The notes under the pieces were generated by a model. The model saw nothing but the letters and a program-made list of their open reading frames with translations. It had not been told where the DNA came from and made no database searches. From Varibaculum massiliense (GTDB lineage Bacteria > Actinomycetota > Actinomycetes > Actinomycetales > Actinomycetaceae): a stretch of DNA of 64,000 nucleotides. The stretch covers positions 1,612,001 to 1,676,000 of the forward strand of contig NZ_FNWI01000004.1 in NCBI RefSeq assembly GCF_900106855.1, given 5' to 3'. Shown here piece after piece: positions 31,823 through 41,086 of this stretch. The translations under genes and the position numbers were made by a program. Position 1 is the first letter of the stretch; the number at the start of each line of letters is the position of its first letter.

Positions 31823-31895
31823 GGGGCTATGGCGCAGTTGGTAGCGCGTCTCGTTCGCAATGAGAAGGTCAGGGGTTCGAATCCCCTTAGCTCCA
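31823..31895 (+). tRNA. tRNA-Ala (anticodon CGC)
   Basis: The 73-base gene folds into a standard cloverleaf. The acceptor GGGGCTA pairs with TAGCTCC (one G-U), the D arm is GCGC/GCGC, the anticodon loop TTCGCAA gives CGC, and the T arm is GGGG-TTCGAAT-CCCC. The discriminator is A, with no encoded CCA. An integrase gene begins about 180 bases downstream, as at many tRNA integration sites. Confidence 0.95.
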
Positions 31896-31903
31896 CAAAT
31901 CGC

Positions 31904-32076: not shown

Positions 32077-33225
32077 TTGGTGGTGATGATCGCGGGGAAG
32101 CGGCGTGGCTTTGGGTCGGCGAAGGCTTGGGAGCTGAAATCGGGCGCGCGTTCGTATCTTGCGTCATTTATTAATCCGGATACGGGTAAAAGAGTTTCGC
32201 GTTCTTTCCGCTCGAAGATGGAGGCGAACGCTTGGCTAGGGGAGCGGCGCCGCGATATCCGTTCTGGGGAGTTCCGCTCCCCAGAAGAGCATCAAGAGGT
32301 GGTTACTTTCGCTTACGCCACCCAAGAACATTTACAGCGTCTAAAGACCGCTGGACGTAAAGGCTCTACCCTTTACACCTATTCCTCGAAGCTACGCTAC
32401 CCCCTAGAAAAACTAGGGGACAAGGATTTAGGGGAGCTTTCCTGTGGCGATATTGAGGCATACTGCTCGCGGGCTTCTAAGGATATGAAGCCGGGTGCGG
32501 CTGCTAATGCCTTGAACGTAACCCGCGCGGTGCTGCGATGGGCAGCAAAGCGCGGATATATGGACGCCTCACAGCTTAACCGGGTTACCTGGCCAGTGTT
32601 CGACCCGGTAAAAGACCCAGAGCGCCGCCAGGTAGCAACCCCCAAGGAGGTCAAGGGCTTGGCTGGAGCTATGCCTGACCGGCTACGCCTAGCAGTCCTA
32701 CTGGGCGCCTGGTGCTCTATGCGCATGGGGGAAGTATGCGGTCTGCAACGCGCCGATTTCACCCACCTAGACAACCCGCCCCTGGCAACGGTGCGTATCG
32801 TCAGGCAGACCAACTCGAAAATGGGCGGGGCTTACACAGATCTAAAGACCAAGGCGGGGCGCCGCGAGATATCCATTCCGCCCGCTCTAGTGCCAGTAAT
32901 CAAACAACACCTGTCTACCTGGGTGGCAAAAGACCCCACGGCTCCCGTATTCCCCAGAACCACCGACCCGGGTGCGCCGGTACATCACAACACGGTTCGT
33001 AGCGCATTTGAACGCGCTCGCGAACAGCTAGGCATGGATTGGTTTGTGTTCCATGATTTGAGGCATACCGGGCTTACTATTTTTGCTCAGCAGGGCGCAA
33101 CGCTCGCGGAACTGCTAGAGCGCGGCGGGCATGTGGATGTAGAGGTTGCCCTGCATTATCAGCACGCGACCATGGAGCGTGACCGAGCGTTAACTGCTCG
33201 CATGGATTCGAGTGTCGAGGTTTAG
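32077..33225 (+). CDS. int: Tyrosine-family site-specific integrase
   Basis: This is a 382-residue phage-type integrase. It has an N-terminal arm-binding region (RSFRSKMEANAWL), a SAM-like core-binding domain, and a catalytic domain with Arg in SMRMGEVCGL, Lys in KTKAGRREI, HDLRHTG, GGH and the closing Tyr in ALHYQHAT. All catalytic residues are present, so it may be active. It lies directly downstream of tRNA-Ala and marks the left end of the island. TTG 32077, GTG 32080 or 32083 and ATG 32086 are all possible starts; AGAGG at 32064-32068 is the likely ribosome site. Confidence 0.9.
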   Translation: MVVMIAGKRRGFGSAKAWELKSGARSYLASFINPDTGKRVSRSFRSKMEANAWLGERRRDIRSGEFRSPEEHQEVVTFAYATQEHLQRLKTAGRKGSTLYTYSSKLRYPLEKLGDKDLGELSCGDIEAYCSRASKDMKPGAAANALNVTRAVLRWAAKRGYMDASQLNRVTWPVFDPVKDPERRQVATPKEVKGLAGAMPDRLRLAVLLGAWCSMRMGEVCGLQRADFTHLDNPPLATVRIVRQTNSKMGGAYTDLKTKAGRREISIPPALVPVIKQHLSTWVAKDPTAPVFPRTTDPGAPVHHNTVRSAFERAREQLGMDWFVFHDLRHTGLTIFAQQGATLAELLERGGHVDVEVALHYQHATMERDRALTARMDSSVEV

Positions 33226-33320
33226 GGTCGTTGGGGTTTCGCCTTCGCTAATTGGTGGGTATGCTAGGAATTAGCAGACAAGGCGCCGCGGGGCGCGACA
33301 TTTCGAGGCAAGGAGAGGAA

Positions 33321-33890
33321 GTGGCAGACAATGACGGAGAAAACCTGCGTTCGGCAAGATTCTCGGGTGAAGAGGGAAGCGACACGTCTGGGGATTCTCT
33401 CGGTGTTCGACCTGAGCGGCAAACACACTTACGCGGCGCTTCAAAATCTTCTCCCAGCTCCCCAGGTAGCATCTCCCCTGTCGATGTGGAATCGGGCGGC
33501 GAACATGAGTCAGAACGCCAGCAGATCATTCAGCAAACGGTAAATGCTGTTCTGCAAGAGATTCATCTGCATGTACCGGTTCGGGAGACCGATTTAGAAA
33601 CTTTATCCAAACTGCGTGACCAGCTACCAGAGATTTATGAGCAGCATGTAGAGAACATGCGGGCATCCCGTGAGCTAGAGGAGTTTCAAACTCATGCTCG
33701 CTATGAGATTCCTGCGAAATATGCGCACCGCGGGCAAGCTATGGGGTTAGCGGCAACGGTTGCCACTCTAGCTGTGGTGGCTTTTGCGGTGTGGGCGCAA
33801 GCCTACTGGATTGCCGGGGTGTTGGGCGTGGTTGATTTAGTAGCTATCGCTGCGGTTTTCGGTTCAAATCAAAAACCGCAAGAGCGTTAA
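33321..33890 (+). CDS. DUF2335-family predicted membrane protein
   Basis: This is a 189-residue protein. The first about 90 residues are polar and Ser/Gly/Glu-rich. A helical region follows (YEQHVENMRASRELEEF), then HRGQAMGL and two adjacent membrane helices, the layout of DUF2335 proteins found in phages and integrative elements. The GTG at 33321 is chosen for AGGAG at 33311-33315. The function is unknown. Its stop overlaps by 3 bases that of the convergent HTH gene. Confidence 0.75.
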   Translation: MADNDGENLRSARFSGEEGSDTSGDSLGVRPERQTHLRGASKSSPSSPGSISPVDVESGGEHESERQQIIQQTVNAVLQEIHLHVPVRETDLETLSKLRDQLPEIYEQHVENMRASRELEEFQTHARYEIPAKYAHRGQAMGLAATVATLAVVAFAVWAQAYWIAGVLGVVDLVAIAAVFGSNQKPQER

Positions 33891-34102
33891 GACTTTATCC
33901 AGGGCTTTAGATCGGTTCGGCTTCCGCGTCCTGGTCTGGCTGCGTTCCATTTGTCGATTGTCTCGATGGTCCAGCCTTGCACGGGGCGGGTATCGGGGCC
34001 AACTATCACATCTGGGGTGGGTAGTTTGTAGCGGGATAGGGATGCGGGTTTTACTCCGATACGGGCGGCGAACTGCATTCGGGATAGGTAGTGTTTGGTC
34101 AC
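33887..34102 (-). CDS. Small HTH DNA-binding protein, minus-strand cassette copy
   Basis: This 71-residue protein starts VTKHYLSRMQFAARIGV and continues with LPTPDVIVG, GW..ETIDKWNAARPGR. It looks like an excisionase/AlpA-type winged HTH. The GTG at 34102 is supported by a clear paralogue on the plus strand at 35027 that also starts with GTG ACT/ACC AA and shares PDVIVG...GW...TID.WNA.RP. The start overlaps the stop of the small membrane protein upstream by GTGA, as in the other copy. Confidence 0.72.
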   Translation of the reverse strand: MTKHYLSRMQFAARIGVKPASLSRYKLPTPDVIVGPDTRPVQGWTIETIDKWNAARPGRGSRTDLKPWIKS

Positions 34103-34269
34103 TTGGTTTCCCGTCCTTTCCATGCGGTACCGATAATGCTTGCACCTAGTCCTGTTCCCCATAGAGCCCAGCAGGTGCACGCCATCCAGAAGGGCATATC
34201 GCGAGAAAAAGTGAGCAGGGCTAGGAAGATAGCGGCTAGGGGGATTACTGCGCTTATTGCTTTTTTCAT
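34099..34269 (-). CDS. Small two-helix membrane protein, minus-strand cassette copy
   Basis: This 56-residue protein (MKKAISAVIPLAAIFLALL...) has two hydrophobic helices separated by SRDMP and ends in a charged KGRETK tail. It has an upstream AGAAGG ribosome site. Its stop overlaps the HTH gene start, matching the 51-residue membrane protein/HTH pair at 34879-35236. No family is recognised. Confidence 0.65.
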   Translation of the reverse strand: MKKAISAVIPLAAIFLALLTFSRDMPFWMACTCWALWGTGLGASIIGTAWKGRETK

Positions 34270-34311
34270 ATCTAGTCACCTTCTTGTTTGTAAGGTAGGT
34301 TTAGAGGTGTT

Positions 34312-34350
34312 GCGGGGGTTCAAGATACTTTCTCTATTTTGAACCCCCGC
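34312..34350 (-). ncRNA. Conserved hairpin of the micro-ORF cassette, minus-strand copy
   Basis: GCGGGGGTTCAA (34312-34323) pairs perfectly with TTGAACCCCCGC (34339-34350) around a 15-base loop. Read in the cassette sense, the loop is AATAGAGAAAGTATC. The sister hairpin at 34798-34840 has a changed stem, still perfectly paired, and a loop of the same length that begins AATA and ends AAGTATC. No U run follows, so it is probably not a plain terminator. Confidence 0.7.
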
Positions 34351-34355
34351 TGCCT

Positions 34356-34466
34356 TTAGGGTTTTCGGTGTTTACCGTTTCCCTTTTTTGACCAATTTTT
34401 GAGAAGGTCGATAATCACTATGACTGCTGTCATGGCGAATATTCCCCATTCTTTTATTTCGTCCAT
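34356..34466 (-). CDS. Micro membrane peptide, minus-strand cassette copy
   Basis: This 36-residue ORF, starting MDEIKEWGIFAM, contains one hydrophobic helix and ends KGNGKHRKP. The basic GKHRK tail is shared with the plus-strand micro-ORF at 34670, and both are preceded by ATGCCT in the same frame. AGAGG lies 8 bases before the ATG at 34466, which favours it over the ATG at 34472. Coding is inferred from the paired duplication. Confidence 0.6.
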   Translation of the reverse strand: MDEIKEWGIFAMTAVIVIIDLLKNWSKKGNGKHRKP

Positions 34467-34495
34467 AGGCATCACCTCTATTTATTTTTCAAACA

Positions 34496-34552
34496 TTGTT
34501 GGCTTTCCTTGCCAACAACACCATAATAACATAAGTAGTTAGGTTAGGTCAA
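34496..34552 (-). promoter_or_regulatory. Promoter and palindrome for the minus-strand cassette
   Basis: On the minus strand TTGACC (34552-34547), an 18-base spacer and TATTAT (34528-34523) form a near-consensus promoter. Immediately downstream, TTGTTGGC and GCCAACAA (34496-34503 and 34511-34518) form an 8-bp inverted repeat with a 7-base gap, placed like an operator. Confidence 0.65.
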
Positions 34553-34586
34553 GTGATTTAATGGGGAAAATAGGGTGAATAAAGTG

Positions 34587-34638
34587 TTGCATATAGATGG
34601 ATATCATGTTATACTTAAAGGGTGTTCGGGGGGAACAC
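34587..34638 (+). promoter_or_regulatory. Promoter and palindrome for the plus-strand cassette
   Basis: TTGCAT (34587-34592), a 17-base spacer and TATACT (34610-34615) form a good promoter. GTGTTC (34622-34627) and GAACAC (34633-34638) form a palindrome just downstream. The palindrome differs from that of the divergent cassette, as if each arm had its own regulator. Confidence 0.68.
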
Positions 34639-34669
34639 GTTGATTGATAACTAAAAAGGGATGATGCCT

Positions 34670-34786
34670 ATGAGGCTAGCCGATTGGGTGATGTCAGCCT
34701 TGATGCTTGCAAGCCTAACCCTGCAAGGGGTGGCGATATGGCAGCAGCGCAAACCACGAAAACGCGGTAAGCACCGCAAGGGCTGA
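34670..34786 (+). CDS. Micro membrane peptide, plus-strand cassette copy
   Basis: This 38-residue ORF (MRLADWVMSALMLASLTLQ...) has one hydrophobic helix and a strongly basic tail ending RKRGKHRKG. AAAGGG at 34655-34660 is the likely ribosome site, 9 bases before the ATG. ATG ATG CCT ATG repeats in frame just upstream, as in the minus-strand copy. It is the first gene after the promoter at 34587-34615. Confidence 0.62.
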   Translation: MRLADWVMSALMLASLTLQGVAIWQQRKPRKRGKHRKG

Positions 34787-34797
34787 CAAAGCTAATA

Positions 34798-34840
34798 GGT
34801 GAGGGGTTCAAAATAATCGAAGTATCTTGAACCCCTCACC
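34798..34840 (+). ncRNA. Conserved hairpin of the micro-ORF cassette, plus-strand copy
   Basis: GGTGAGGGGTTCAA (34798-34811) pairs perfectly with TTGAACCCCTCACC (34827-34840) around the 15-base loop AATAATCGAAGTATC. The pairing is kept relative to the minus-strand copy although stem bases differ, and the loop ends are the same. It lies between the micro-ORF and the small membrane gene in both copies. Confidence 0.72.
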
Positions 34841-34878
34841 GCCTAGCATCTCATGACTTACCCCTGGAAAGGAATATT

Positions 34879-35034
34879 ATGGTGACCCGAAACGTGACCG
34901 TATCGGCGCTTTCGTTGCTGATAATCGCTCTAGCGACACGGATAACCGGTTTGCGCTGGTACACCTGGCTATTCATAGCAGCATGGCTAACCCTTACCGT
35001 CGCAGGGTACCGGCAGGACAAAGCCCGTGACTAA
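34879..35034 (+). CDS. Small two-helix membrane protein, plus-strand cassette copy
   Basis: This 51-residue protein has two hydrophobic helices (VTVSALSLLIIALA and WYTWLFIAAWLTLTV) and a charged YRQDKARD tail. AAAGGA lies 5 bases before the ATG. Its stop overlaps the HTH gene by 8 bases, the same kind of coupling as in the minus-strand cassette. The function is unknown. Confidence 0.68.
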   Translation: MVTRNVTVSALSLLIIALATRITGLRWYTWLFIAAWLTLTVAGYRQDKARD

Positions 35035-35236
35035 GCAACCTAAACGGTACCTATCCGCGTTAGATGTGGCAGAAAGAATCGGGATAAAACGCGGAACCCT
35101 GTACTCGTACCGCGCAAAGAATATGCTCCCACCCCCGGATGTGATCGTTGGAACCACTACTAACGCTACTCACGGCTGGCTACCCAAAACGATAGACGAC
35201 TGGAACGCTTCCCGCCCCTCCCGCTCTAAAAAATAA
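35027..35236 (+). CDS. Small HTH DNA-binding protein, plus-strand cassette copy
   Basis: This 69-residue protein (YLSALDVAERIGIKRGTLYSYR, PDVIVG, GWLPKTIDDWNASRPSR) resembles excisionase/AlpA-type HTH proteins. It is a paralogue of the protein at 33887-34102. The GTG start overlaps the membrane-protein stop. It might be the excisionase or a repressor of the element; neither can be shown here. Confidence 0.75.
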   Translation: MTKQPKRYLSALDVAERIGIKRGTLYSYRAKNMLPPPDVIVGTTTNATHGWLPKTIDDWNASRPSRSKK

Positions 35237-35325
35237 GAGTGAAATATAAATAACATTTAGGGGTTTTAATGTTTACCGCTCTCAGCTAATGCTAGAGTAA
35301 ATAAAAACAACGGGAGGTGAACAAG

Positions 35326-35874
35326 ATGGCAAAGGCAGTCGATGTAGCTAAATATATTCTTGCCTATCGAGAAGCAAGATACCATATGACCACAGCTTTT
35401 GCGCTACAAAAACTCTTGTATTATTGCCAAGCTTGGATGCTCGTGGCTAAAGGCCACCCCTTGTTCCCCGAACAGGTTATCGCCTGGAAACACGGACCGG
35501 TTGTTACCGAGGTGTCCCCCTACTGCAAAGGTCGTCGTTATGTGTTCCCTAGGGAAATCCCGGAGGCAAACACGAATCATCTAACCCTTAGCGAACGTTC
35601 TTTAATAGATCGGGTGCTGTCAATTTTCAATAAGGAAGAAGATGAAAATCTAGGGGATACTCTTGAAGAGATGAGCCACCAGGAGAAGCCCTGGGCTAGT
35701 GTTGCTATTAATCAAGTAATATCGCCTGAAAGTATGCTTAACTTTTATTCTTCTATTCAGGCTGACCCCTCAATATCTCATAGCGCCCCGATCCCTGACT
35801 TGGCAGACATATCGGATCGTACTTTCATAAGCACCGATGACGCGGATTTCCTTGAAGCCTTTTTAGCTGAATAG
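35326..35874 (+). CDS. Panacea (DUF4065/SocA-like) domain protein, putative antitoxin
   Basis: This 182-residue protein has the Panacea pattern: VAKYIL near the start, ALQKLLYYCQAWMLV, PLFPEQVIAWKHGPVV, and LSERSLIDRVLS. Panacea domains act as antitoxins for many unrelated toxins and also occur in the proteolytic adaptor SocA. GGGAGG at 35312-35317 supports the ATG at 35326. The GNAT gene follows after 18 bases, so the two are probably an operon and a toxin-antitoxin pair. The local DNA is more AT-rich than the core genome. Confidence 0.85.
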   Translation: MAKAVDVAKYILAYREARYHMTTAFALQKLLYYCQAWMLVAKGHPLFPEQVIAWKHGPVVTEVSPYCKGRRYVFPREIPEANTNHLTLSERSLIDRVLSIFNKEEDENLGDTLEEMSHQEKPWASVAINQVISPESMLNFYSSIQADPSISHSAPIPDLADISDRTFISTDDADFLEAFLAE

Positions 35875-35892
35875 AGGAATCAAGTTATCTGT

Positions 35893-36420
35893 ATGAGCGG
35901 TGAAGCCTGGACGAGGGTCGTTAAACTTAGTTCAGATTTAAGAATTGATGGTTTTTTCAGTGGTGAACCATCAATAGATATGTGGTTTCAGCGTGACGGG
36001 CTAGATGAGCAAGAGCAAGGTGGCTGTACCGTCTATGTTGCGGTTGATGATGCTTACACAATCATCGGATTCTTCTCCTTATCGATGCACAAGCTACAAA
36101 AGAACATAGTCCCTGGCTCTGTCAAGAACGATTTAACGATATCGGGAAATATTCCCTGCGTACTCCTGGGGCGCTTAGGCATAGACCAACATTTCCGAGG
36201 GAAAACTTTTAGACAATCTGGGGGCAAATCTCAAGGCCCTTTGTTGATCAAGCAAGCGATTAAGCAGGCTCAAGGTGTTGCGGAAATGGTCGGCTGCAGG
36301 CTTATGTTTGTCCAGGCGTTAAATGATGAGCTTATCGATTTTTATTCGCGGCAAGGATTCGTTTCGTTGCCCAGTAATCCTAGAAACATGGTGCTCGATT
36401 TGAGGAAATATCCCAGCTAG
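35893..36420 (+). CDS. GNAT-family acetyltransferase, putative toxin
   Basis: This 175-residue protein shows the layout of tRNA-targeting GNAT toxins (TacT/AtaT/KacT group): FFSGEPSIDMWF near the start, TVYVAVDDAYTIIGFFSLS, IPCVLLGRLGIDQHFRGK (acetyl-CoA region) and FYSRQGFVSLP at the end. Those toxins acetylate aminoacyl-tRNA and normally pair with ribbon-helix-helix antitoxins. Here the partner is a Panacea protein. The R/QxxGxG-type loop is altered (RGKTFRQSGG), so activity is not certain. Confidence 0.8.
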   Translation: MSGEAWTRVVKLSSDLRIDGFFSGEPSIDMWFQRDGLDEQEQGGCTVYVAVDDAYTIIGFFSLSMHKLQKNIVPGSVKNDLTISGNIPCVLLGRLGIDQHFRGKTFRQSGGKSQGPLLIKQAIKQAQGVAEMVGCRLMFVQALNDELIDFYSRQGFVSLPSNPRNMVLDLRKYPS

Positions 36421-37575: not shown

Positions 37576-39020
37576 GGGCTTGTCAAGTTTTTTGTGTAAA
37601 CGGTTTTTATTAAATAGTGGTTGGGAATCGGTCTGGGTAGTGTAGGGCTAGTTCGCCAAGTACTTTCTGCCATCCTTGGATTGCTAGTCCTTCGATTAGT
37701 TTGCCTGGTGCTTTTCGGGGGTTGCCTTTGGGTCGGCCGGCTTGTTTGGCTCGTTGCCTGGCTCGTTTGTCTTCGATATTTGTATCGCTAGCCACATGAG
37801 TTTGACAGCGGCTGCATCGGAGGGGAAATGACCTCTGGTTTTGATGATTTTACGTAACTGGTAATTCAGTGACTCGATACTGTTGGTGGTATAGATCGCT
37901 TTACGGGTAGCCGGGCCGTAAGCAAGGAACGGGATGAACCTGTCCCAGGCTCGCTGCCAAGCCGCTAGTGTGGCCGGATATTTTTGGCCCCACTGGCTTT
38001 TCTCGAAGGCATCCAGCGCCTGAAGTGCGCTGTCTTCGTTAACCGCTGTGTAGATAGGCCTTAGAGCCGCCGCGACGGCTTTGCGGTCTTGGTAGGCCAC
38101 GAATCGCATTGAGGACCGTATTAGGTGAACCACACAGGTTTGCACGATCGCCCCTGGCCAAGTCGCCGCGATAGCCTCTAGGAAACCAGTTAGCCCGTCG
38201 CAGGCGAGGATTAACACATCTTTGACGCCACGGTTGGCCAGTTCAGCGCACACACCAGCCCAAAATTTAGCGCCCTCGGCTGCTTGCACCCAAATGCCAA
38301 GCACGTGCTTTATGCCATCAAGATCGCGCCGATAGCGATATGAGCGGCCCGGGAAGTGACCCTGTTTTGATCTTTAATTTTGACTTGGATCGCATCTAGA
38401 AACATGACCGGATAAAACGCCTCTAGCGGGCGGGTCTGCCAAGCAGCTACCTCGTCTTGGACAGCTTCGGTGATATTCGAGATCGTCTCGTGAGAAATCT
38501 GGGTGCCGAAAGTGGCCTCCAGGTGATGGGCAATTTCCCTGACCGTCATGCCACCGGCATACAAAGAGATAATCATGTCATCAAGACCCGCCAAGCGCCG
38601 CTGACCCGGCGGCAACAGACACGATTTGAAGCTGCCAGCCCGATCCCTTGGCTGATTAATCTTAACCGGGCCAACCTCGGTATGAACCGTTTTAGCCGTG
38701 GTGCCATTACGCGAATTACCGCTACCATACCCGGCCCGATCATGCTTGTCGTAACCGAGATGATCCCTCAGCTCAGCCTTCATACCGCGTTCAAGAACAG
38801 CTTTAATCAACTCCGGCAAAAACCCGCCTTCACCAGTCAACTCCACGCCACGCTCACCAGAACACGCCACCAAGCGATCAAGTAAATCATCATCAATAAA
38901 CTCACGGCGCAACGCGCCAGCAGCAGAATCCTCAGCAGGAACATCAATCATATTCATAGTCATAGTAAATCCTCATTTCATTACTGAACCGACCATTTAC
39001 ACAAACTATTTGACACCCTC
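37576..39020 (-). mobile_element. IS256-family element, copy 1 (minus)
   Basis: The element is about 1445 bases. Its ends contain TGTCAAGTTTTTTGTGTAAA and, inverted, TGTCAAATAGTTTGTGTAAA, which match at 17 of 20 positions. Sequence shared with copy 2 extends five bases beyond these. The transposase reading frames are the same as those of copy 2. No 8-9 base target duplication is visible at its flanks. Confidence 0.88.
37610..38963 (-). pseudogene. IS256-family transposase, frameshifted, copy 1
   Basis: Three pieces of a mutator-type transposase lie in different frames: an N-terminal piece (38963-38310) ending at a stop after the DAIQVKIKD strand, a middle piece (38304-37696) with LGIWVQAAEGAKFW and DGLTGFLEAI, and a C-terminal piece to 37610. 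One extra base and, further on, one missing base explain the frames. Exactly the same two lesions occur in copy 2. Confidence 0.85.
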
Positions 39021-39641: not shown

Positions 39642-41086
39642 GAGGGTGTCAAATAGTTTGTGTAAATGGTCGGTTCAGTAATGAAATGAGGATTTACTAT
39701 GACTATGAATATGATTGATGTTCCTGCTGAGGATTCTGCTGCTGGCGCGTTGCGCCGTGAGTTTATTGATGATGATTTACTTGATCGCTTGGTGGCGTGT
39801 TCTGGTGAGCGTGGCGTGGAGTTGACTGGTGAAGGCGGGTTTTTGCCGGAGTTGATTAAAGCTGTTCTTGAACGCGGTATGAAGGCTGAGCTGAGGGATC
39901 ATCTCGGTTACGACAAGCATGATCGGGCCGGGTATGGTAGCGGTAATTCGCGTAATGGCACCACGGCTAAAACGGTTCATACCGAGGTTGGCCCGGTTAA
40001 GATTAATCAGCCAAGGGATCGGGCTGGCAGCTTCAAATCGTGTCTGTTGCCGCCGGGTCAGCGGCGCTTGGCGGGTCTTGATGACATGATTATCTCTTTG
40101 TATGCCGGTGGCATGACGGTCAGGGAAATTGCCCATCACCTGGAGGCCACTTTCGGCACCCAGATTTCTCACGAGACGATCTCGAATATCACCGAAGCTG
40201 TCCAAGACGAGGTAGCTGCTTGGCAGACCCGCCCGCTAGAGGCGTTTTATCCGGTCATGTTTCTAGATGCGATCCAAGTCAAAATTAAAGATCAAAACAG
40301 GGTCACTTCCCGGGCCGCTCATATCGCTATCGGCGCGATCTTGATGGCATAAAGCACGTGCTTGGCATTTGGGTGCAAGCAGCCGAGGGCGCTAAATTTT
40401 GGGCTGGTGTGTGCGCTGAACTGGCCAACCGTGGCGTCAAAGATGTGTTAATCCTCGCCTGCGACGGGCTAACTGGTTTCCTAGAGGCTATCGCGGCGAC
40501 TTGGCCAGGGGCGATCGTGCAAACCTGTGTGGTTCACCTAATACGGTCCTCAATGCGATTCGTGGCCTACCAAGACCGCAAAGCCGTCGCGGCGGCTCTA
40601 AGGCCTATCTACACAGCGGTTAACGAAGACAGCGCACTTCAGGCGCTGGATGCCTTCGAGAAAAGCCAGTGGGGCCAAAAATATCCGGCCACACTAGCGG
40701 CTTGGCAGCGAGCCTGGGACAGGTTCATCCCGTTCCTTGCTTACGGCCCGGCTACCCGTAAAGCGATCTATACCACCAACAGTATCGAGTCACTGAATTA
40801 CCAGTTACGTAAAATCATCAAAACCAGAGGTCATTTCCCCTCCGATGCAGCCGCTGTCAAACTCATGTGGCTAGCGATACAAATATCGAAGACAAACGAG
40901 CCAGGCAACGAGCCAAACAAGCCGGCCGACCCAAAGGCAACCCCCGAAAAGCACCAGGCAAACTAATCGAAGGACTAGCAATCCAAGGATGGCAGAAAGT
41001 ACTTGGCGAACTAGCCCTACACTACCCAGACCGATTCCCAACCACTATTTAATAAAAACCGTTTACACAAAAAACTTGACAAGCCC
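39642..41086 (+). mobile_element. IS256-family element, copy 2 (plus)
   Basis: This copy is inverted relative to copy 1, has the same length and ends, and encodes identical protein fragments. Together the two copies enclose about 620 bases and form a composite-transposon-like structure and a large inverted repeat. Confidence 0.88.
39699..41052 (+). pseudogene. IS256-family transposase, frameshifted, copy 2
   Basis: The N-terminal piece (39699-40352) starts MTMNMIDVPAEDSAAGALR and stops at TAA 40350-40352. Read one base earlier, the frame continues as RDLDGIKHVLGIWVQ, so one extra base lies just before the stop. The middle piece ends near 40880, where a single missing base moves the frame to NIEDKRARQRAKQAG. 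The DDE-type catalytic region is therefore split. Confidence 0.85.

Follow-up and report, generated by a model that had tools for sequence, protein, structure and literature searches.

The window analysed here is a 64,000-nucleotide stretch of the 2.28-Mb genome of Varibaculum massiliense (contig NZ_FNWI01000004.1). Positions 33887-35236 of the window hold two divergent cassettes of very small genes, each composed, in order, of a micro open reading frame (micro-ORF), a hairpin, a gene for a two-helix membrane protein and an overlapping gene for a helix-turn-helix (HTH) protein. The left cassette lies on the minus strand and the right cassette on the plus strand, and their shared centre, at 34473-34660, is a promoter region from which both point outward. 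All of these parts, with their order and overlaps, are present where an earlier note on this DNA had placed them. Sequence comparison across related cassettes adds a new observation, a likeness between the peptide encoded by the micro-ORF and helix two of the membrane protein in the same cassette.

34523..34552, minus strand: left promoter, TTGACC, 18 nucleotides, TATTAT, with TG ahead of the -10
34356..34466, minus strand: left micro-ORF, ATG at 34466, Shine–Dalgarno sequence TAGAGGTG; 36 residues, MDEIKEWGIFAMTAVIVIIDLLKNWSKKGNGKHRKP, ending GKHRKP; one helix, N-terminus out and C-terminus in (N-out/C-in), predicted by a charge-based topology rule
34312..34350, minus strand: left hairpin, 5 nucleotides past the stop codon; long stem, A.C mismatch, 3 base pairs, 7-base loop GAGAAAG
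34099..34269, minus strand: left two-helix membrane protein, 56 residues
33887..34102, minus strand: left HTH gene, GTG start, 71 residues, 4-base overlap with the two-helix ORF; match to phrog_597 with an expectation value (E) of 8e-22
34587..34615, plus strand: right promoter, weak -35 TTGCAT, 17 nucleotides, TATACT, with TG ahead of the -10; read by eye, below threshold in the promoter scan
34670..34786, plus strand: right micro-ORF, ATG at 34670; 38 residues, MRLADWVMSALMLASLTLQGVAIWQQRKPRKRGKHRKG, ending GKHRKG
34798..34840, plus strand: right hairpin, 11 nucleotides past the stop codon; A.C mismatch, 3 base pairs, 7-base loop ATCGAAG
34879..35034, plus strand: right two-helix membrane protein, 51 residues
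35027..35236, plus strand: right HTH gene, GTG start, 69 residues, 8-base overlap with the two-helix ORF

Both micro-ORF starts combine a Shine–Dalgarno sequence with a following segment, ATGCCTATG, that is common to left and right, and small inverted repeats (TTGTTGGC/GCCAACAA and GTGTTC/GAACAC) lie near each leader start. The pair had been read as an inverted duplication. In a tree of 79 HTH proteins, however, the two window copies fall in different supported clades: the right HTH groups with two lone copies of a congeneric genome (G011) at 97% identity, and the left HTH is nearest to a protein of another genus (L056; 69% identity) and to a group that includes actinophages. A duplication within the window is ruled out by this tree and by the standalone close kin of the right copy. 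Because the tree separates the window copies in this way, the pair reads as a head-to-head juxtaposition of two old paralogues.

Recurrence in actinobacteria and their phages

Relatives of the HTH protein occur in 55 of 200 genomes of the family Actinomycetaceae, spread over 22 of its 36 genera, and the named relatives (for example Actinotignum urinale, Arcanobacterium urinimassiliense and Mobiluncus curtisii) belong to this family. HTH matches were also found in 630 phage records, mostly of Mycobacterium, Gordonia and Arthrobacter. A micro-ORF was scored in a fixed upstream window if it had 22-50 codons, a 5/6 Shine–Dalgarno match and a hydrophobic stretch. Such a micro-ORF was present at 31 of 62 HTH loci, compared with 22 of 3259 control windows (0.7%) and 1 of 62 loci read in antisense. 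A looser search parsed the cassette at 46 of the 80 loci with a close HTH (above 80 bits), and several more of these loci have weaker versions; the layout recurs although the sequences have drifted to an extreme degree. The 80-bit cut and the micro-ORF thresholds were set within this analysis, and the controls are window-based. The earlier note had named a consistent lack of micro-ORFs beside homologous HTH genes as an argument against grouping the parts. No such lack exists in the close subfamily, whereas no cassette was parsed for HTHs scoring under 75 bits, which come from cluster B mycobacteriophages, Streptomyces and others.

The Gordonia phages Eviarto (gp36-35-34), Polly (gp34-33-32) and Savage (gp32-31-30) and the M. 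abscessus prophage prophiGD51-1 carry the cassette, and in all four the micro-ORF is already annotated as a gene. The three-gene set of relatives may be tandem, single or without the two-helix gene, and one prophage region of Actinotignum urinale contains four in tandem, with divergent peptides. A simpler cassette, consisting of micro-ORF, hairpin, second micro-ORF and HTH gene, is found in the window's own genome (L086, G000:C4:2193300), where the second micro-ORF stands in place of the two-helix gene, and in a congener (L153). A sigma-70-like promoter, its -10 often TATAGT, precedes the peptide in 78% of parsed cassettes and occurs in 1.4% of control windows. In a minority of cassettes (L083, L053, L063 and L068) a long inverted repeat, with arms of up to 20 base pairs and cassette-specific sequence, encloses the promoter and is a candidate operator.

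The view that no named system has this layout agrees with searches of Pfam, PHROGs, PADLOC and Rfam, which gave no name for the peptide, the two-helix protein or the hairpin. PADLOC profiles matched neither small membrane protein, their sole match being a weak one of the HTH to mad1, and PHROG 3399, a family of no assigned function, matched 6 of 37 peptides (best E 4e-4).

Peptide, partner, hairpin and HTH protein

Among close relatives, with the window's right copy pooled with them, the ratio of non-synonymous to synonymous polymorphism (pN/pS) was 0.17 for the peptide (17 synonymous and 9 non-synonymous changes) and 0.28 for the two-helix protein, in a test over six independent pairs. In this small sample, both are coding genes constrained by purifying selection. 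Flanking charges of the peptide are -0.67 on the N-terminal side and +4.2 on the C-terminal side. In line with the earlier description, the micro-ORF product is predicted to be a membrane peptide, and by the charge rule it should span the membrane in the same orientation as its partner's second helix.

Comparison of peptides with their own partners in 33 non-redundant cassettes revealed that similarity to the second (C-terminal) helix is higher in true pairs than in unpaired combinations (27.3 versus 19.9; p=5e-5), whereas similarity to the first (N-terminal) helix is not (17.8 versus 18.3; p=0.72). The second-helix signal persisted when the glycine-rich group (p=2.5e-4) and the remaining cassettes (p=7e-4) were taken separately, and was repeated in a slightly different non-redundant set, to which five hand-read cassettes were added and from which close peptides were removed. 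In L068, for example, VGNILIGIGTILIGIGTIWN in the peptide is matched by VGKILIGIGVILYGIGTIVN in the partner.

A perfect stem of at least 9 base pairs lies 3′ of the micro-ORF in 50% of loci and in 3.2% of control windows. In 38 of 39 parsed cassettes, the folded hairpin starts 0-11 nucleotides past the stop codon of the micro-ORF. The hairpin of the earlier note is present, but its 15-base loop resolves into an A.C mismatch, 3 base pairs and a 7-base loop. This form, with its lower stem, recurs in 14 loci, and the mismatch is A.C in 14 of 14. Over 13 distinct rows, two-sided changes occur at every one of the 12 pairs and 99.4% of cells are paired; covariation scores 0.81, compared with 0.25 in shuffles. 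This RNA-like covariation and the conservation of the A.C column both favour a structured RNA, which matched none of the Rfam covariance models. Recurrence, selection and covariation together uphold the earlier view that the parts of the cassette belong together.

Two simple roles for the hairpin were set aside. It is not an intrinsic terminator, as a sense-direction U-tract is present in 0 of 39 cassettes. Long-range pairing of the micro-ORF Shine–Dalgarno sequence with the segment 3′ of the hairpin was also rejected: its pairing with the segment of the same cassette is slightly stronger than with the segments of other cassettes (p=4e-4), a weak excess.

A covariance model of the hairpin matches 24 of 200 family genomes and, in L171, finds a cassette without an HTH gene that adjoins a tRNA gene. 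The model is not wholly specific, since four loci of the window's genus (L156, L172, L173 and L184) have a near-identical shape 3′ of a housekeeping gene, apparently pntB. Separately, cassette fragments lie inside an apparent array of clustered regularly interspaced short palindromic repeats with a 61-nucleotide period (L168, positions 1419-1630; L185, positions 1420-1660, in G171:C6; and L169, in G165). These fragments are ~160 nucleotides long, several times the length of a spacer, and run from the end of a micro-ORF (GKHRK plus stop) through the A.C hairpin into the beginning of the next gene; one array contains two of them.

Both window HTHs belong to the PHROG 597 family of phage DNA-binding proteins (profile E 1.5e-21 and 8e-22), and a structure model of the right HTH suggests a MerR-like winged helix (predicted local distance difference test score, 88.7). 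The earlier assignment as an HTH protein is supported, and the type is probably a winged helix as in phages. Foldseek matched the model to chains of MerR, RacA and BldC (best E 0.03, probability 0.95-1.0, TM-score about 0.5-0.57), with the RdfS excisionase a weaker match lower in the list; the modelled fold would fit a repressor or an excisionase alike. PHROG 597 includes the cassette HTHs, but its most distant members lack the micro-ORF, the hairpin and the two-helix gene.

Genomic setting

The window's cassettes lie in an integrated element that runs from tRNA-Ala(CGC) through an integrase gene, a gene for a DUF2335-related membrane protein, the cassettes, a Panacea/GNAT gene pair and insertion sequences, and is followed by ribosomal protein genes.

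31823..31896, plus strand: tRNA-Ala(CGC), probable attachment site
32077..33225, plus strand: tyrosine integrase of the element
33252..33890, plus strand: membrane protein related to DUF2335-type proteins beside other cassettes; convergent with the left HTH gene

No attachment repeat of at least 16 nucleotides was found on the far side of the element, where insertion sequences have probably disrupted it. The right cassette is directly followed, at 35317-36420, by a Panacea-domain gene and then a GNAT gene, a likely toxin–antitoxin pair. Farther on, inverted copies of one transposase, both with split frames (37696-38963 and 39699-40966), flank fragments of another insertion sequence.

Elements of this arrangement recur elsewhere. 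In a congeneric genome (L061), tRNA-Ala(CGC) and a related integrase precede a right-type cassette without the left one, and tRNA-Ala(CGC) also lies near the cassette of L072. DUF2335-type membrane proteins stand beside the cassettes of L050 (7135-7686), L051, L065 and L089, and are convergent with the HTH gene in the first three. Three loci (L068, L078 and L140) have the order integrase, cassette, convergent endolysin. In other loci, the cassette follows just behind a gene for an ImmA-type peptidase. tRNA genes are found nearby in several loci, and genes for transfer-messenger RNA or signal recognition particle RNA in others. The prophage position suggests that the cassette is expressed in the lysogen. 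A phage-like genetic switch, one of the readings first offered, is not supported as a choice between lysis and lysogeny: the cassettes adjoin the immunity repressor or the integrase and do not replace them.

Proposed function and rival explanations

It is proposed, with a probability of roughly 45%, that the cassette is a self-regulated prophage module in which a membrane-active peptide is combined with a helix-mimicking antagonist, comparable to holin-like pairs or toxin–immunity modules. The peptide, the look-alike partner, the regulator and the hairpin together fit this reading; the layout, recurrence, selection on the peptide, hairpin covariation, pairwise helix similarity and prophage position on which it draws are computed results. 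The module would be self-contained, borne by prophages and integrative elements, and transcribed from its own promoter into a messenger RNA for three products. The first would be a peptide of 25-45 residues with a single outside-to-inside membrane helix and, usually, a basic cytoplasmic tail. The second would be a small two-helix protein, whose second helix has the same orientation and in many cassettes appears to imitate the peptide, and the third a MerR-like winged-helix DNA-binding protein of ~70 residues. The peptide may oligomerise in the membrane and disturb it, with presumed toxicity, and the two-helix protein would co-assemble with it through the look-alike helix and render it inactive, like an antiholin or immunity protein. 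The HTH protein may repress the cassette promoter, and the hairpin, lying under the ribosome that terminates at the micro-ORF stop, could set the ratio of peptide to downstream gene products. The module would be on in the lysogen, with a role in prophage maintenance or against other phages.

Several points weigh against this proposal. The window's own two pairs have no detectable similarity between peptide and second helix (ranks 27 and 11 of 46), and the two-helix gene is absent in L057, L067 and L141-L145, where an antagonist would then not be obligatory. The helix likeness could stem from an old gene duplication without any antagonism, and common ancestry of the sequences can inflate the result of the helix pairing test as well as the covariation counts of the hairpin. 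Profile matches of the peptide to known toxins and Pfam families are at noise level, and autorepression is inferred from the minority of promoters with long palindromes.

The type I toxins TisB, Fst and Hol-Tox are very short membrane peptides with a strong Shine–Dalgarno sequence and a structured messenger RNA. The cassette shares these traits but, unlike those systems, has a protein partner and an HTH gene in place of an antisense RNA. As in holin/antiholin pairs, helix similarity and the charge rule point to helix-sharing membrane proteins of N-out/C-in and N-in/C-in topology across the cassette family, although the similarity is not detectable in the window's own pairs. Location in a lysis operon with an endolysin is not found: the nearby endolysin is mostly convergent, on the opposite strand, as in L068, L078 and L140. 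The closest described topology is that of LysF1a and LysF1b of F1 mycobacteriophages, where adjacent genes encode one protein with two helices (N-in/C-in) and one with a single helix (N-out/C-in), the latter toxic when expressed by itself (PMC13056207). Both are side-by-side actinophage genes, like the cassette pair. However, LysF1b and LysF1a have 124 and 88 residues and belong to the lysis operon (PMC13056207), whereas the cassette proteins have 25-45 and about 50-60 residues and form a separate unit with promoter, hairpin and HTH gene, opposed to the lysis genes where these are seen.

The main rival, superinfection exclusion, is judged unlikely. Here the peptide and the two-helix protein, both non-toxic, would jointly block DNA entry of other phages at the lysogen membrane, at a level set by the HTH protein. 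An arms race of this kind would fit the strong drift and the presence of several paralogues in one genome, and the cassette site between immunity or integrase genes and lysis genes resembles that of ltp in the streptococcal phage TP-J34, an exclusion gene of the lysogeny module beside the integrase and a metallo-proteinase gene (PMC3952083). Ltp itself is a 142-residue lipoprotein (PMC3952083) without sequence relation to the cassette proteins. Profile searches linked the latter to no exclusion protein, and known exclusion proteins need no look-alike partner.

An attenuator is improbable. In such a scheme, translation of the micro-ORF as a leader peptide would open or block the hairpin and thereby control how the genes for the two-helix and HTH proteins are transcribed or translated, and the peptide would have no target of its own. 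The hairpin start does fall within the footprint of a terminating ribosome, and the slight excess of Shine–Dalgarno pairing points the same way. Against this stand the missing sense U-tract, the lack of a conserved arrest motif, the purifying selection on the peptide and its resemblance to the partner helix.

Excision control has equally poor prospects. On this view the HTH protein would act as the element's recombination directionality factor (excisionase), with the small genes as passengers. It is annotated 'excise' in Eviarto and Savage, integrases are close by, and the modelled fold is like MerR, RacA and BldC and, weakly, RdfS. However, its match to the excisionase family phrog_66 is far weaker than that to phrog_597, the presence of four copies in tandem within a single prophage region, and of two in the window, speaks against this role, and the family also occurs in cluster B phages with no integrase within the stretch seen. 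One form of the RNA control suggested by the earlier note would be a type I toxin–antitoxin system, with the peptide silenced by an antisense RNA whose end lies at the hairpin. It is very improbable: the A.C mismatch becomes a G.U pair on the opposite strand, where U-rich tails occur in 8 of 39 cassettes, but antisense promoters are at chance in a scan of sigma-70-like sites (3 observed, 3.1 expected).

Returning to the peptide–antagonist module, a wider claim is somewhat unlikely to hold in full. It is that the cassettes form a widespread, unnamed class in actinobacterial prophages, in which a peptide is checked pair-specifically by a helix-copying partner at a hairpin-set dose, as a membrane-embedded toxin–immunity or exclusion system without a described counterpart. 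The HTH protein, present in hundreds of actinophage records, is often labelled as a plain DNA-binding protein or as 'excise', and a peptide of 25-45 codons is easily overlooked; the hairpin motif can be used to locate further cassettes without an HTH gene. If the pairing model is true, the family would supply many natural peptide/antagonist pairs for studies of membrane helix–helix specificity, and would be a candidate system for the defence or maintenance of prophages in human-associated actinobacteria, which have been little studied.
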